NCBI GenBank assembly: GCA_018608245.1
Contig: JABAZY010000044.1
Coordinates: 22,086-67,880 of the forward strand
DNA length: 45,795 nucleotides
DNA from: Alphaproteobacteria bacterium
GTDB taxonomy: Bacteria > Pseudomonadota > Alphaproteobacteria > Micavibrionales > Micavibrionaceae
Direction of reading: 5' to 3'
This document shows positions 7,772 through 32,984 of this stretch, one piece after another (position 1 is the first letter of the stretch; every line of letters starts with the position of its first letter). The notes beneath the pieces were generated by a model that was not told the DNA's origin, did no database searches, and was given only the letters and a program-made list of their open reading frames with translations. Position numbers and translations under genes: made by a program.

Positions 7772-8416
7772 TTATAAAGCTTTTTTCTTCTGTTTATATA
7801 ATACTCTTATATGGGGGCGACCGTTTTCTGCTTCGTATTTTTCGTAATATTGTTGGTGGTACTCCTCGGCAGGCCAGAATTTCTGGGCAGGCTCTAGGGT
7901 GGTCACAATAGGTTTCTTCCATGCTTTTGAGGCGTTTACCTCGGCTATGATGGTTTCCACCAGCTCTTTTTGCTCGGTATCTTCATAGAATACGGCTGAG
8001 CGGTATTGGGTGCCTTTATCAACGCCTTGGCGGTTTAGTTGGGTTGGATCATGGGCGATTTTGAAGAAATACTCCAATATTTCACGTGCTGAGATGATTG
8101 TGGGGTCGAAATAGATCTCAGTGGCTTCGGCGTGCCCTGTTTTGCCTGTGGTGATGTCACCGTAGGTTGGGTTGTCCGTTTTTCCGCCTGTATAGCCCGA
8201 AATTGTGTAAACAACGCCATTTTTAGCGCGAAATTCGCTCTCTAGGCACCAAAAACAGCCACCTGCGAGGGTTAGAAGTTCTGCGTTTTCGGGTAATTCT
8301 GTCTGTATCGTATCGGCCACGTCCATACCTTTGCTGGTTGAGGGGAAAGAAAATAAGCTTACCACGAGAATAAGTCCTAAAATTGATAGCGTAAAAACGG
8401 GTAAAACAAATCGCAT
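7772..8416 (-). CDS. msrA: Peptide methionine sulfoxide reductase A with N-terminal export signal
   Basis: Reduces methionine-S-sulfoxide in proteins. The 214-aa product has the active-site motif GGCFWCLESEF (nucleophile Cys54), GYTGGKTDNPTYGDI, HAEATEIYFDP and the C-terminal YHQQYYEKY. Residues 5-24 form a hydrophobic helix after a short MRF start, so the enzyme is probably sent to the periplasm or anchored in the inner membrane. Most MsrA proteins are cytoplasmic, so this is a notable variant. No resolving-cysteine motif is obvious near the C-terminus, and no MsrB domain is fused. It is the first gene before nadA (29 bp apart) and divergent from the MFS gene. Confidence 0.92.
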   Translation of the reverse strand: MRFVLPVFTLSILGLILVVSLFSFPSTSKGMDVADTIQTELPENAELLTLAGGCFWCLESEFRAKNGVVYTISGYTGGKTDNPTYGDITTGKTGHAEATEIYFDPTIISAREILEYFFKIAHDPTQLNRQGVDKGTQYRSAVFYEDTEQKELVETIIAEVNASKAWKKPIVTTLEPAQKFWPAEEYHQQYYEKYEAENGRPHIRVLYKQKKKAL

Positions 8417-10493: not shown

Positions 10494-10878
10494 GTTAGAA
10501 AGCTGGATAACCGCGTTTGTAATTTATTATGACCGAGGAAAGTCCGGGCTTCGTGAAAACATAGTGCCGGGTAACGCCCGGGTGGCGTGAGCCAACGGAA
10601 AGTGCAGCAGAGAGTAGACCGCCCGTGATTTTTTAAGCAAGTCTTTTAAGATCGCAGGTAAGGGTGAAAGGGTGTGGTAAGAGCGCACCGCGTGTTTGGT
10701 AACAAATATGGCAATGTAAACCCCACTAGAAGCAAAACCAAATAGGAATGGCGTATAGGTGTGTTTTCCACCTGTTGTTCGGGTAGGTTGCTTGAGGTAT
10801 TTAGCAATAAATATCCTAGATGAATGGTTATCGCTCTATTTCGATAGGGTACAAAACCCGGCTTATAGGCTTTCTAAC
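10494..10878 (+). ncRNA. rnpB: RNase P RNA, bacterial type A
   Basis: Catalytic RNA that trims tRNA 5' leaders. The outer helix P1 is visible as GTTAGAAAGC (10494-10503) pairing with GCTTTCTAAC (10869-10878). Conserved blocks appear in order: GAGGAAAGTCCGGGC, AGAGTAGACCG, GGTAAGGGTGAAAGGGTG, AGAGCGCACCG, AAACCCCA, AGAAGCAAAACCAAATAGG, TAGATGAATGGTTATC and ACAAAACCCGGCTTATAGG. The order and spacing match the class A core. The ends are set by P1 and could be off by a few bases. A strong terminator follows at 10910. Confidence 0.96.
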
Positions 10879-10909
10879 TTATTAATTTAGTGAAGCAATT
10901 CATAAAAAA

Positions 10910-28932: not shown

Positions 28933-30840
28933 ATGATAAACGTAAGAATACAAGCACCAGAGGTTCAAAAATTGTCACCAAAAATTACAGTCGTCGGAGT
29001 CGGCGGAGCAGGCGGTAACGCCGTCAATAACATGATTTCATCAGCACTAGAGGGATGTGAATTCCTTGTCTGTAATACAGACGCTCAGGCGCTAGAGGGA
29101 TCTTTATGTGATAACAAAATTCAATTAGGGGCGCACGTGACAGGCGGTCTTGGTGCTGGTGCGAAACCAGAAATTGGTGAAAAAGCAGCCCATGAGAGCT
29201 TGGACGAAGTGATGCAATTCCTTGAAGGCTCAAACATGGCCTTCATTACCGCTGGTATGGGTGGTGGAACGGGAACGGGTGCCGCTCCTGTGATTGCGAA
29301 AGCTTGTCGTGATGCAGGTATCTTGACCGTTGGTGTTGTGACGAAGCCTTTCCATTTTGAAGGAACGCACCGCATGAACATGGCGGATGCTGGTATTAAT
29401 GAAATGCAAGATTTTGTTGATACGCTGATCGTTATTCCTAACCAAAACTTATTCCGTATCGCAAACGAGAAAACAACTTTCGCGGAAGCCTTCAAAATGG
29501 CTGATGGTGTGTTGCAATCTGGTGTGCGTGGCGTGACTGATTTGATGGTGATGCCTGGTCTGATTAACTTAGACTTCGCTGATATTCGTAGTGCGATGCT
29601 TGAAATGGGTAAAGCGATGATGGGTACTGGTGAAGCTGAAGGTGAGCGCCGTGCAACGGAAGCTGCTGAATCTGCAATCAACAACCCACTTCTAGATGAT
29701 GTTTCAATGAAGGGTGCTAGAGGCGTTATTATTAACGTGACTGGTGGCGCTGACATGACATTGTTCGAAGTTGATGAAGCGTGTAATCGCATTCGTGATG
29801 AAGTTGATCCAAATGCGAATATTATCTTTGGTTCGACCTTTGATGAAAAACTTGATGGTCAAATGCGTGTGTCGGTTGTGGCAACGGGCATTGATTCTCA
29901 GGAAGCGGCGCGTACAATTCCGGGTACAGGAGGCCTTCGCGTTAACGCAGTGGGAAAGTCTGATACGTCTGGTACAGTAGGTGCTGGGGCGACAACGACT
30001 GTGAAAACAGGTATGGAACGTGCTATTCCACAAACGGAAGTTGCTCGTGCGATGACGATGAGTGCCAGACAGTCTATTCCGGCGTCTGCGCCAGTTCAGC
30101 CTGTAGCTTCTGCACCTGTTAAAGCATCTGTGCCAACAGAAGCAGATATGTTTGAACAAAGTGAGTTTCAAGCGGTTATTGAAGAAAAGCCAATGGTAAC
30201 ACCCGCAACAACATCAATGCGTGGTAGCGTGCAAGGTGGAAAATTCATTCCACCAAGCCCGATGGTGCCAGAGCCACAGGATACTGTTTCTTATGCAGCG
30301 CCTGTTGTTCAGCCTGTTGTTCAGCAACAACCTCAAACACAGCAGCAGCCCCAACAACAACCAACATCGAATTTCTCTGCGGCGCGTAGCGCAGCGACAA
30401 CATCGACAGTCGGTAGTAGCATGGCAGAGCGTATGAATCGTGAAGAGCAACAATCAACATTGAATGCTCAACGTTATACTGGTCAAAATGAACAAGCTTA
30501 TCAAGAAGTTGCGGCAAGTAGTGGCCTAAACTTACGCCCACCAGTACCGGGTGCGAGCACAGCTGAAAAGCGTAAGTCTCCTAGCTTGTTTGAACGTATT
30601 ACCAATGTGTATAAAGGCGATCATGGCGCTCAACAAACTGAGCAAGGTGAAGGTGATCAGGCTCAAGGATCAGCTGGTGGTAACGCCTCTGGCGGTTTCC
30701 ACGGTGGATTACGTGCTGAGCGTGCGCCTGTCGATCCTTCTCAAGGTAAGTTAAATATTGATTCTCCTGCAGCGGCTCCTAAAGCCAAGGTGGAAGACGA
30801 TTTAGACATCCCTGCGTTCTTGAGACGTCAAGCGAACTAG
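28933..30840 (+). CDS. ftsZ: Cell division protein FtsZ
   Basis: Tubulin-like GTPase that forms the division ring. The 635-aa product has [15 protein letters not shown] (20-34), NTDAQAL, the tubulin signature [11 protein letters not shown] (110-120), [20 protein letters not shown] and [11 protein letters not shown]. The conserved core ends near residue 320. A very long linker follows (about 290 residues) with a Gln-rich stretch ([14 protein letters not shown]), ending in the partner-binding peptide [14 protein letters not shown]. Long linkers are common in alphaproteobacterial FtsZ; this one is at the long end. GGAGGT precedes the start. A terminator follows. Confidence 0.97.
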
Positions 30841-30887: not shown

Positions 30888-30917
30888 AAGGGAGCTTTCA
30901 TTAGCTCCCTTTTTTTA
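30888..30917 (+). terminator. Rho-independent terminator after ftsZ
   Basis: AAGGGAGCT (30888-30896) pairs with AGCTCCCTT (30903-30911), followed by a run of T to 30917. It is 48 bp after the ftsZ stop and marks the end of the dcw transcripts before lpxC. Confidence 0.9.
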
Positions 30918-30923
30918 TAGCAG

Positions 30924-30948
30924 GCGTAGCGCGTTTACGCGCCTGAGC
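30924..30948 (+). repeat. REP-like palindrome, copy 1
   Basis: Reads GCGTAG-CGCG-TTTA-CGCG-CCTGAGC: a GTAG foot, a 4-bp GC stem (5 bp if the A is skipped) with TTTA loop, and a CCTGAGC tail. It lies 7 bp after the ftsZ terminator. Copies 2 and 3 (31044, 32046) share the frame, with paired changes in the stem. Confidence 0.7.
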
Positions 30949-31043
30949 TCTTTCTTACTACAGACATGTAACATTCCGATACAAACTGTGATTTTTTATT
31001 TTGTGCCTGCTTCTGTATATTGAGAGCATAAAGAAAGTATAAA

Positions 31044-31068
31044 GCGTAGCGGGTTTACCCGCCTGAGC
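31044..31068 (+). repeat. REP-like palindrome, copy 2, just upstream of lpxC
   Basis: Reads GCGTAG-CGGG-TTTA-CCCG-CCTGAGC. The stem keeps pairing although the two inner bases differ from copy 1 (CG/CG becomes GG/CC). It ends 21 bp before the lpxC ATG, in the expected 5' untranslated region, same orientation as copies 1 and 3. Confidence 0.75.
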
Positions 31069-31089
31069 CACGAAAAAAAACGGAATATT

Positions 31090-32019
31090 ATGCAAAAAAC
31101 AGTGAAAAACACTATCTCAATCGAAGGAATCGGCCTGCATTCGGGCGTTACGGTTCATATGAGCATTCACCCAGCCTCACCAGATCATGGTGTGACATTT
31201 AAGCGTGTGGATATCACTGATGGTAGAGATAACGTGATTTTGGCACGTTGGGACAAGGTTGTTGATGCCCGTTTATGTACGGTTATTGGTAATGATGCAG
31301 GTGTAACTGTTGGCACAATTGAACATGTAATGGCGGCTCTTCGTGGCTGTGGCGTTGATAATGCGATTATCGAAGTGGATGCACCAGAACTACCAATTAT
31401 GGATGGTAGCTCAAAAGAATTTGTTGAAAAAATTGAAGAAATTGGCACACGTGTTCAAAGTGAGCCAAGACGCGCTATTCGTATTTTGAAAGAGATTAAC
31501 TATCAAGAAGGCGATAAAACAGTGACATTGTCACCATCTGCTTTGCCAATTTATAGTGGTACTATTCAATTTGATAACCAAGCGATTGGTACGCAAAGCT
31601 ATGAAATGAAGTTTGTGAACGGTAATTTCAAGCATGATATGGCTGATTGCCGTACATTCTGCATGTTGCAAGATGTTGAAATGATGCGTGCAAATGGCCT
31701 TGCGCTAGGTGGTTCATTGGATAACGCGATCGTTGTTGATGATACAGGCGTGATGAACGAAGAAGGCACACGTTGCCAAGATGAATTTATCCGTCACAAA
31801 TTACTGGATGCGATTGGTGATATTTCACTATGTGGTGGTTTGTTTATCGGACGCTATGACTCATTCAAGGGTGGTCATGACATGAATAATAAGGCGTTAC
31901 GTGCTTTATTTGCCGATGATAGTGCATGGGAAATCGTTGATATGTATTTGGAAGTAGATGAAGCTGAAGGCTTTATGTATGACGAAAAACCACGCATTTC
32001 GGCTGTTTCAGCAGCCTAA
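31090..32019 (+). CDS. lpxC: UDP-3-O-acyl-N-acetylglucosamine deacetylase
   Basis: Zinc enzyme for the committed step of lipid A synthesis. The 309-aa product starts QKTVKNTISIEGIGLHSG and has GTIEHVMAALRGCGVDNA (zinc ligand His79), MDGSSKEFV, DCRTFCMLQDVEMMRANGLALGGSLDNA, RHKLLDAIGDISLCG (His236, Asp240) and SFKGGHDMNNKALRAL (catalytic His263). Length is normal. The ribosome site is weak (GGA 5 nt upstream), and a REP-like hairpin lies in the leader. As usual in the lineage it follows ftsZ. Confidence 0.97.
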   Translation: MQKTVKNTISIEGIGLHSGVTVHMSIHPASPDHGVTFKRVDITDGRDNVILARWDKVVDARLCTVIGNDAGVTVGTIEHVMAALRGCGVDNAIIEVDAPELPIMDGSSKEFVEKIEEIGTRVQSEPRRAIRILKEINYQEGDKTVTLSPSALPIYSGTIQFDNQAIGTQSYEMKFVNGNFKHDMADCRTFCMLQDVEMMRANGLALGGSLDNAIVVDDTGVMNEEGTRCQDEFIRHKLLDAIGDISLCGGLFIGRYDSFKGGHDMNNKALRALFADDSAWEIVDMYLEVDEAEGFMYDEKPRISAVSAA

Positions 32020-32045
32020 ACTAACCTCATTTTTTATTATTAGCA

Positions 32046-32070
32046 GCGTAGCGGGCTTGCCCGCCTGAGC
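32046..32070 (+). repeat. REP-like palindrome, copy 3, after lpxC
   Basis: Reads GCGTAG-CGGG-CTTG-CCCG-CCTGAGC. Compared with copy 2 only the loop-closing T-A becomes C-G, keeping the pair. It is 27 bp after the lpxC stop and next to the perfect hairpin at 32072-32097. Confidence 0.75.
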
Positions 32071-32150: not shown

Positions 32151-32984
32151 ATGCAAAAAAATAATCTATTACTGATTTTAGTGGTTTTAGGCCTAGCTCT
32201 AGTTGGCTGTTCGTCTAAAGATAAGAAAGAAGCAGAAGTTGAGGTTAAGCCTCAAACATCTGTGGAAGAGCTATATAACCGTGCGGCGAAAGAGCTGGAT
32301 GATGAAAATTACGTGAGGGCTATTCCATTATTCGAAGAAGTTGAGCGTGAGTTCCCTTATTCTCAGTGGGCGACTAAGGCACAATTAATGGCGGCGTTTT
32401 CGGCGTATAAAGCAGACCGTTATGACGAAGCTATTTTGTCCATTGATCGCTTTATTGATTTGCATCCAGGTAATGAAGATATCGACTATGCTTATTATCT
32501 TCGGGCACTCGCTTTCTATGAGCAAATTTCTGATGTAGCGCGTGATCAAAGTATTACGGATGAAGCGCTAAGATCATTAGATAGTTTGATCGTTCGTTTC
32601 CCGAACAGCCAATATACGCGTGATGCTAAATTAAAACGTGATCTGACGCTTGATCATTTGGCAGGGAAAGAAATGGAAATTGGTCGTTACTATTTAAACC
32701 GTAATCAAATGAATGCAGCGATTAACCGCTTTAATGAAGTTATTAAAGATTATCAAACAACAACCCACGTGCCAGAGGCTCTCCATAGATTAGTGGAAGC
32801 TTATCTGACCATTGGGTTGCGTGATGAAGCATTTAAGATGGCGGCTATTTTAGGCCATAATTATCCAGGATCTAAATGGTATCAAGACACTTATAAGTTA
32901 ATGGATGATCAGTCGCGCGCAAAATTAATTAAAGATCGTTCTTTCGTCGATAAGACAGTCGATTCTTTGTTCAAGCCTAATTAA
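32151..32984 (+). CDS. bamD: Outer membrane assembly lipoprotein BamD
   Basis: Part of the BAM complex that inserts beta-barrels into the outer membrane. The 277-aa product has a lipoprotein signal ending in LALVGC (lipidated Cys20), then tetratricopeptide-type repeats: SVEELYNRAAKELDDENY, AIPLFEEVEREFPYSQWA, IDRFIDLHPGNEDIDYAYYL and RFPNSQYTRDA. The residue after Cys is Ser, so outer-membrane sorting is expected. Length is a little above E. coli BamD (245). It lies between lpxC and recN, the common alphaproteobacterial order. Confidence 0.94.
   Translation: MQKNNLLLILVVLGLALVGCSSKDKKEAEVEVKPQTSVEELYNRAAKELDDENYVRAIPLFEEVEREFPYSQWATKAQLMAAFSAYKADRYDEAILSIDRFIDLHPGNEDIDYAYYLRALAFYEQISDVARDQSITDEALRSLDSLIVRFPNSQYTRDAKLKRDLTLDHLAGKEMEIGRYYLNRNQMNAAINRFNEVIKDYQTTTHVPEALHRLVEAYLTIGLRDEAFKMAAILGHNYPGSKWYQDTYKLMDDQSRAKLIKDRSFVDKTVDSLFKPN

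Follow-up and report, generated by a model that had tools for sequence, protein, structure and literature searches.

A covarying family of short palindromic repeats around lpxC and at dispersed sites in an alphaproteobacterial genus

The three palindromes that surround lpxC in the window (the whole stretch of 45,795 nucleotides that was analysed, C54:22086-67880 in a genome of 2.02 Mb and 72 contigs) are members of a genuine repeat family, similar in its workings to repetitive extragenic palindromes (REPs) and Rickettsia palindromic elements (RPE). The family lacks two usual marks of RAYT-driven REPs, namely a flanked RAYT gene and inverted dimers. With a probability of about two thirds, we consider it to be a REP/RPE-type DNA repeat, short, palindromic and non-autonomous, formerly spread and now mainly persisting. 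The observations behind this reading are the occurrence in both orientations, the strong covariation, the lineage-restricted copy number, the head-to-tail pairs, the in-frame residence in genes and the sites shared between species.

Palindromes around lpxC and their copies in the source genome

The three copies match the pattern GCGTAG-N12-CCTGAGC exactly, all on the forward strand, and the first-pass annotation, which had described three palindromes of one orientation sharing GCGTAG..CCTGAGC, was accurate in this respect. The features of the region are as follows.

28933 to 30840, + strand, ftsZ, context (TIGR00065)
30924 to 30948, + strand, palindrome copy 1, stem CGCG/CGCG, loop TTTA (pattern match)
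31044 to 31068, + strand, palindrome copy 2, stem CGGG/CCCG, loop TTTA (pattern match)
31090 to 32019, + strand, lpxC, context (TIGR00325)
32046 to 32070, + strand, palindrome copy 3, stem CGGG/CCCG, loop CTTG (pattern match)
32151 to 32984, + strand, bamD, context (TIGR03302)

Copy 1 begins 83 nt past the ftsZ stop, directly beyond a terminator-like hairpin (30888-30911); 21 nt separate the end of copy 2 from the lpxC start codon, and 26 nt lie between the lpxC stop and copy 3. When up to three mismatches were allowed, the window had 13 matches vs 5.5 expected, and the ten besides the three copies all carry three mismatches.

The search of the source genome with the spacing proposed in the annotation gave 15 exact matches and none to the reversed control pattern, which rules out a chance origin of the palindrome family. 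A longer pattern with up to three mismatches found 32 matches vs 2 for the control, including a second group, CCGTAG..CTGAGG, in which the outer pair is swapped. The core CGTAGCGNGNNNNCNCGCCTGAG occurs 29 times with at most one mismatch, and a covariance model at E 0.001 or better recovered 40 copies in the search of family genomes and 19 when the source genome was part of a larger set with fewer candidates scored. The proposal that the three local copies belong to a dispersed repeat family is borne out, at about 30-40 copies in the genome.

Structure and covariation of the hairpin

The repeat unit is a hairpin in which one to three covarying outer pairs enclose CGTAG-CGNG-YYTR-CNCG-CCTGAG, usually followed by an A-rich tail; positions of about 27-36, downstream of the element, are A-rich in all three copy sets. 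Its structure was studied in 152 copies with flanks from eight genomes: 31 from the source genome, 61 from others and 60 from G007, the last being 42 listed of 76 core matches together with others in the same stretches. The first outer pair (0/24) is Watson-Crick in 143 of the 152 copies vs 69 expected, with a shuffle maximum of 101 (G-C 78, C-G 60, T-A 3, A-T 2), and the second (-1/25) in 107, with a shuffle maximum of 73. Stem pair 8/15 is Watson-Crick in 141 copies vs 48 expected (shuffle maximum 75; C-G 61, G-C 41, T-A 33, A-T 6), and the loop-closing pair in 143 vs 76 expected (shuffle maximum 96; T-A 78, C-G 65). None of 500 within-genome shuffles, which ignore kinship among copies, reached the observed pairing. 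Six of seven off-register controls were not above the shuffles, and one, -2/25, was (52 vs 34 expected). Among 61 distinct copies, 99 cells were changed on both sides vs 40 in shuffles, slid registers being all far lower; the number of pairs with change on both sides, four, was no higher than in shuffles. The pairwise change of stem and loop-closing bases noticed earlier in the three window copies, whose loops end in T..A (copies 1 and 2) or C..G (copy 3), is confirmed in them and exceeds shuffles in the larger set.

The loops are mostly TTTA (71 copies), CTTG (37) or CCTG (28), with TCTA in three, and a Y-Y-T-R loop with a closed pair is found in 139 of the 152 copies. TTTA and CCTG are compact type II DNA tetraloops by NMR (excerpts of PMC8037738 and PMC5661647); no comparable paper on a CTTG loop was found in the literature. 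Given that almost every loop is Y-Y-T-R closed by a Watson-Crick pair, and that two of the loop types are known compact DNA tetraloops, the form that is selected or copied may be a single-stranded DNA hairpin. Short TY loops are usual in GTAG REPs (excerpts of PMC3733652), so the loop alone does not distinguish this family.

GTAG is intact in 134 of the 152 copies. It is not clearly a free terminal tag, because base pairs outside it covary. Folding as DNA gives a stem of five pairs with GTA and CTGAG unpaired, and for the three window copies the gain over shuffles is modest at most (z -0.75 to -1.88); the same strand folded as RNA is stable, with a longer stem.

Nineteen close pairs (at most 80 nt apart) were found in the fetched stretches, 13 of them in G007. 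All except one are head-to-tail at 32-49 nt, mostly 36-42. Inverted dimers (BIME/REPIN) are typical, though not universal, in GTAG REPs; here they are nearly absent, and with one inverted pair in 19 we ruled out an organization in REPIN-type inverted pairs.

Some copies directly adjoin a second palindrome, GATTGCTTCGCTACGC..GCAATGACG (L001, about 1460-1495; also L140, L144, L153 and L154), whose opposite strand starts with CGTC and which resembles CGTC repeats. There was no CGTC-type match within the window itself.

Distribution among genomes and phages

A search for the core in 95 genomes gave a match in ten. In the genus these are the source genome (29), G002 (15), G003 (7), G004 (20), G005 (7), G006 (7) and G007 (76), with no match in G001, G008 (77 percent complete) or G009. 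Outside the genus G034 has five, and G044 and G054 have single matches with imperfect arms, which were left out of the copy counts. The covariance model found matches in nine of 104 family genomes and none in the other 95: G001, G008 and G009 have 2 (both weak), 0 and 0 matches, and the remaining other members of the genus 8 to 73. The repeat family was found in seven or eight of ten genus members, and copy number in the genus ranges from 0 to about 100 per genome. In the class sample seven of 385 genomes matched, all except the source genome with one weak match each (six matches, E 1.5e-4 to 5.8e-4).

Exact matches to one pattern were found in 72 stretches of named genomes. By their record labels these are uncultured Alphaproteobacteria MAGs, Micavibrio sp. 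UBA2638 and MAGs of high GC content under the names Devosia and Bradyrhizobiaceae, together with single matches in Robiginitomaculum, Prevotellaceae and Woeseiaceae MAGs. With a threshold of E 0.01, the covariance model gave six matches in G519 (three below 1e-4), 13 in G523 (ten below 1e-4), one each in G520 and G522, and 104 in G528, which has contig places in common with G007. It gave none in the Prevotellaceae and Woeseiaceae records, whose single matches have imperfect arms and were counted as chance. The five places in G034 are identical to those in the UBA2638 record, which indicates that the bacterial family to which the window belongs includes that Micavibrio MAG. Micavibrio is a predator. 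The present data add a compact, strongly covarying repeat family to this poorly studied alphaproteobacterial lineage; we found no publication on such a palindrome family in Micavibrio or Micavibrionales in the literature on repetitive extragenic palindromes or on palindromes there.

In G034 (Micavibrio sp. UBA2638, 96 percent complete) lpxC had no match at E 0.001, which may point to a lipid A pathway that is modified or missing, or to a gap.

Four viral stretches in IMG/VR match the pattern, and two of them have clear copies by the model; G527 has a weak model match only (E 2.1e-4), and the pattern match in L269 has imperfect arms. Copies at L267:6536-6557 and 7851-7872 are in a high-G+C tail fragment of a Mu-like phage, in the short gaps between genes for the tape measure and two successive baseplate hub proteins. 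A second phage fragment has one copy (L268:4463-4484) with the same flanks as the L267 copy at 7851-7872.

Position relative to genes

According to simple longest-ORF calls, 125 of 153 copies are not within any called ORF. The 78 copies in codirectional gaps are antisense in 44 cases and sense in 34, and the lack of a clear strand bias to genes indicates that the family is a repeat at the DNA level rather than an RNA element of lpxC; a strand-specific RNA element was ruled out on these counts. Only one of 13 lpxC loci of relatives, that of G007, has a copy, reversed, with two mismatches and on the ftsZ side, which rules out an element specific to lpxC.

We consider it very improbable that the palindrome is an RNA element in a broader sense, a hairpin between cistrons that adjusts mRNA stability or termination. 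Its RNA hairpin is stable on folding, and 24 of the 78 copies are found 5-32 nt past a stop codon vs 15.6 expected (p 0.009, in a range picked after viewing the data). Start codons at 5-35 nt, a range chosen in the same way, show no such excess (19 of 78 vs 16.8 expected, p 0.28), there is no clear strand bias, and the same site can hold opposite orientations in sister species. The palindrome has no match in Rfam, so a known Rfam family was rejected as its identity, and among the window copies only copy 3 was called terminator-like, by means of a different stem.

Copies in reading frames

Of the 28 copies in called ORFs, 15 were judged to be inside real genes. There are two in dxs of the source genome, one in truB of each of G003, G004 and G006, and one each in aroC, dapF, an ispB-like gene, a 5-formyltetrahydrofolate cyclo-ligase gene and a hydrolase gene. 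A methyltransferase gene has two tandem copies in G004 and one at the same residue in G007, and the start of a dusA-like gene in G007 has two; the methyltransferase, dusA-like and hydrolase names were read from sequence.

Comparison with solved homologues, made for five genes (the alignment of the cyclo-ligase fell short of the copy site), revealed extra residues at the copies: a net of about 33 at the two copies in dxs, about 24 in aroC, about 15 in dapF, 12 in truB and about 11 in the ispB-like protein. Typical encoded peptides are RSAPARLS (sense) and PQAGKPATA (antisense). Such in-frame residence in conserved protein genes (aroC, dapF, ispB-like, dxs and truB) is a trait of Rickettsia palindromic elements. 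Intragenic REPs are already known (excerpts of PMC3733652); the present copies are further, well-supported examples in which a very short palindrome encodes an in-frame peptide, and the enzymes concerned are open to assay.

Sites shared between species

Between species of the genus, 57 of 159 copies fall into 17 groups of orthologous sites, each connected through a single orthologous neighbour at most 350 nt away and some joining adjoining gaps. They include rpsJ/rplC, groES/groEL, rpsB, rplU/rpmA, rplM, rplA/rplJ, tig, purH, truB and ftsZ/lpxC, gene names that, except for lpxC and ftsZ, were read from sequence. The two copies have the same orientation in 34 of the 54 shared-site pairs and the opposite one in 20. 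In within-genome permutations, agreement at shared sites was above expectation for the first outer pair (0.63 vs 0.38, p 0.002) and the second (0.48 vs 0.22, p 0.0005), in weak excess for the loop pair (p 0.02) and not above expectation for the inner pair 8/15 (p 0.14). The flanks of same-orientation pairs had a similarity of 0.34 vs 0.32 for random ones (p 0.02).

Old shared sites whose inner hairpin drifts, turns round or is exchanged would give this pattern, and so would repeated insertions into preferred targets. The search for an empty site by way of the phage relatives returned only the query contig, and since no empty site was found, insertion itself was not witnessed. The earlier suggestion of an active family is not borne out, as several sites are common to distant species and no empty site is available for comparison.

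The shared sites, together with the near-invariant CGTAGCG/CGCCTGAG, are equally compatible with a host function under selection, and selection, instead of copying, could have produced the compensation in both arms. Both points count against the REP/RPE reading, as do the lack of an empty site, the stable RNA fold, the modest DNA folding scores, the off-register pair -2/25 and the four doubly changed pairs, no more than in shuffles that ignore kinship. A DNA site kept by the host, that is, a hairpin or duplex bound at particular operons by a nucleoid, gyrase-like or regulatory protein, would account for the near-invariant arms and the 17 groups of common sites, at several of which orientation differs. 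We nevertheless regard it as unlikely, considering that 95 of 104 family genomes have no model match, that G001, G008 and G009 have at most two whereas copy number is 8 to 73 in other genus members, and that copies sit inside the reading frames of unrelated enzymes; conserved operons, in addition, make shared sites easier to detect. Decidedly unlikely, in our judgement, is a further reading in which the family is a replaceable plug in stable sockets: orthologous sites would retain the outer base pairs, and a single-stranded DNA hairpin would be repeatedly excised, inverted or replaced there by an enzyme new to REPs, with the degenerate RAYT described below possibly kept as a binding protein. 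Under the REP/RPE reading that we prefer, the copies would now persist chiefly because they are inherited, duplicated locally in tandem and corrected from one arm to the other.

The RAYT-like gene

The source genome has one match to Y1_Tnp (26.6 bits), in the gene C70:6187-6870 (L016:1423-2109), which scores 41 bits against NF047646, the REP-associated tyrosine transposase, below the cut-off of 80. Orthologues are present as a single copy in eight of the nine other genus members, and none was found in G008. The convergent downstream neighbour is argS-like, as read from sequence; it adjoins the RAYT-like gene in the majority of the genus loci, and also in G017, G039, G047 and G053, and lies about 1.2 kb further away in G001 and G005.

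With the residue register verified in an alignment of a canonical relative with E. coli TnpA_REP (4er8), all nine genus proteins were found to have Gln in place of the first HUH His and to have lost the Asn of YxxxN, four residues after the Tyr; the Tyr itself is Phe in six, His in one and kept in two. The motif of TnpA_REP class 2 is Y---NP, and its Asn has a metal-binding role (excerpts of PMC6006769). A genus protein gave no match in PDB.

The first-pass annotation had proposed GTAG REPs mobilised by a RAYT. The dispersed GTAG palindromes and a RAYT-like gene are indeed there, but an element-flanked or catalytically intact RAYT was not found: in none of 14 loci, seven of them from element-bearing genomes, does the palindrome come within 1.5 kb of it. 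As alternative partners of the gene, other GT[AG]G hairpins were considered and rejected: five occur in 13 loci, two of them at the same place, but none is common to the loci and their density, like that of the window, is not above background.

Current mobilisation by the genome's own RAYT is accordingly a highly unlikely explanation, notwithstanding the usually intact GTAG and a gene resembling Y1_Tnp and REP_Tyr_transpos in the source genome and in eight of nine other genus members. The catalytic residues are lost (His and Asn in nine of nine, Tyr in seven of nine), no element or partner hairpin accompanies the gene, and among genomes G001 and G009 have the gene with two weak or no palindrome copies, while G034 (five copies) and G519 (six model matches, three below E 1e-4) have copies and no Y1 match. 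It is conceivable that an earlier RAYT dispersed the copies and was then lost. Under the preferred REP/RPE reading, past spread would have been by a TnpA_REP-type single-stranded DNA transposase, or by another agent no longer seen in these genomes.

The degenerate gene (L016, L063-L074) is single copy in nine genus members and in four genomes of three other genera, and looks domesticated.

Comparison with known repeats

Like GTAG REPs, the family consists of imperfect palindromes of 20-40 nt with GTAG near the 5' foot, a short TY-type loop and complementary stem changes, mostly extragenic and sometimes intragenic (excerpts of PMC3733652). It is multi-copy and mostly between genes, with 29-40 copies in the source genome. 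Unlike in GTAG REPs, pairs outside GTAG covary, so that a free end at the tag is not evident.

The likeness to RPE and CGTC repeats is that these are palindromes, mostly alphaproteobacterial, which can sit in frame in protein genes; CGTC repeats, too, are apparently without a dedicated transposase (excerpts of PMC3733652). In this comparison by description, the tag is another one, and a unit here adds about 8-14 residues vs 20-30 for dimers and groups in the same source. CGTC-1 repeats are reported for Micavibrio aeruginosavorus (excerpts of PMC3733652). The genus gene resembles RAYT (TnpA_REP class 2) in its matches to Y1_Tnp and, below cut-off, to NF047646, and differs from it in lacking the first HUH His and the YxxxNP residues and in its fixed argS-like neighbourhood.

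The family adds to the REP-like repeats for which no working RAYT is visible, and what sustains such repeats becomes testable within a single genus whose copy number runs from 0 to about 100 per genome.

The window also contains, at 10495-10881 on the + strand, a Bacterial RNase P RNA class A.
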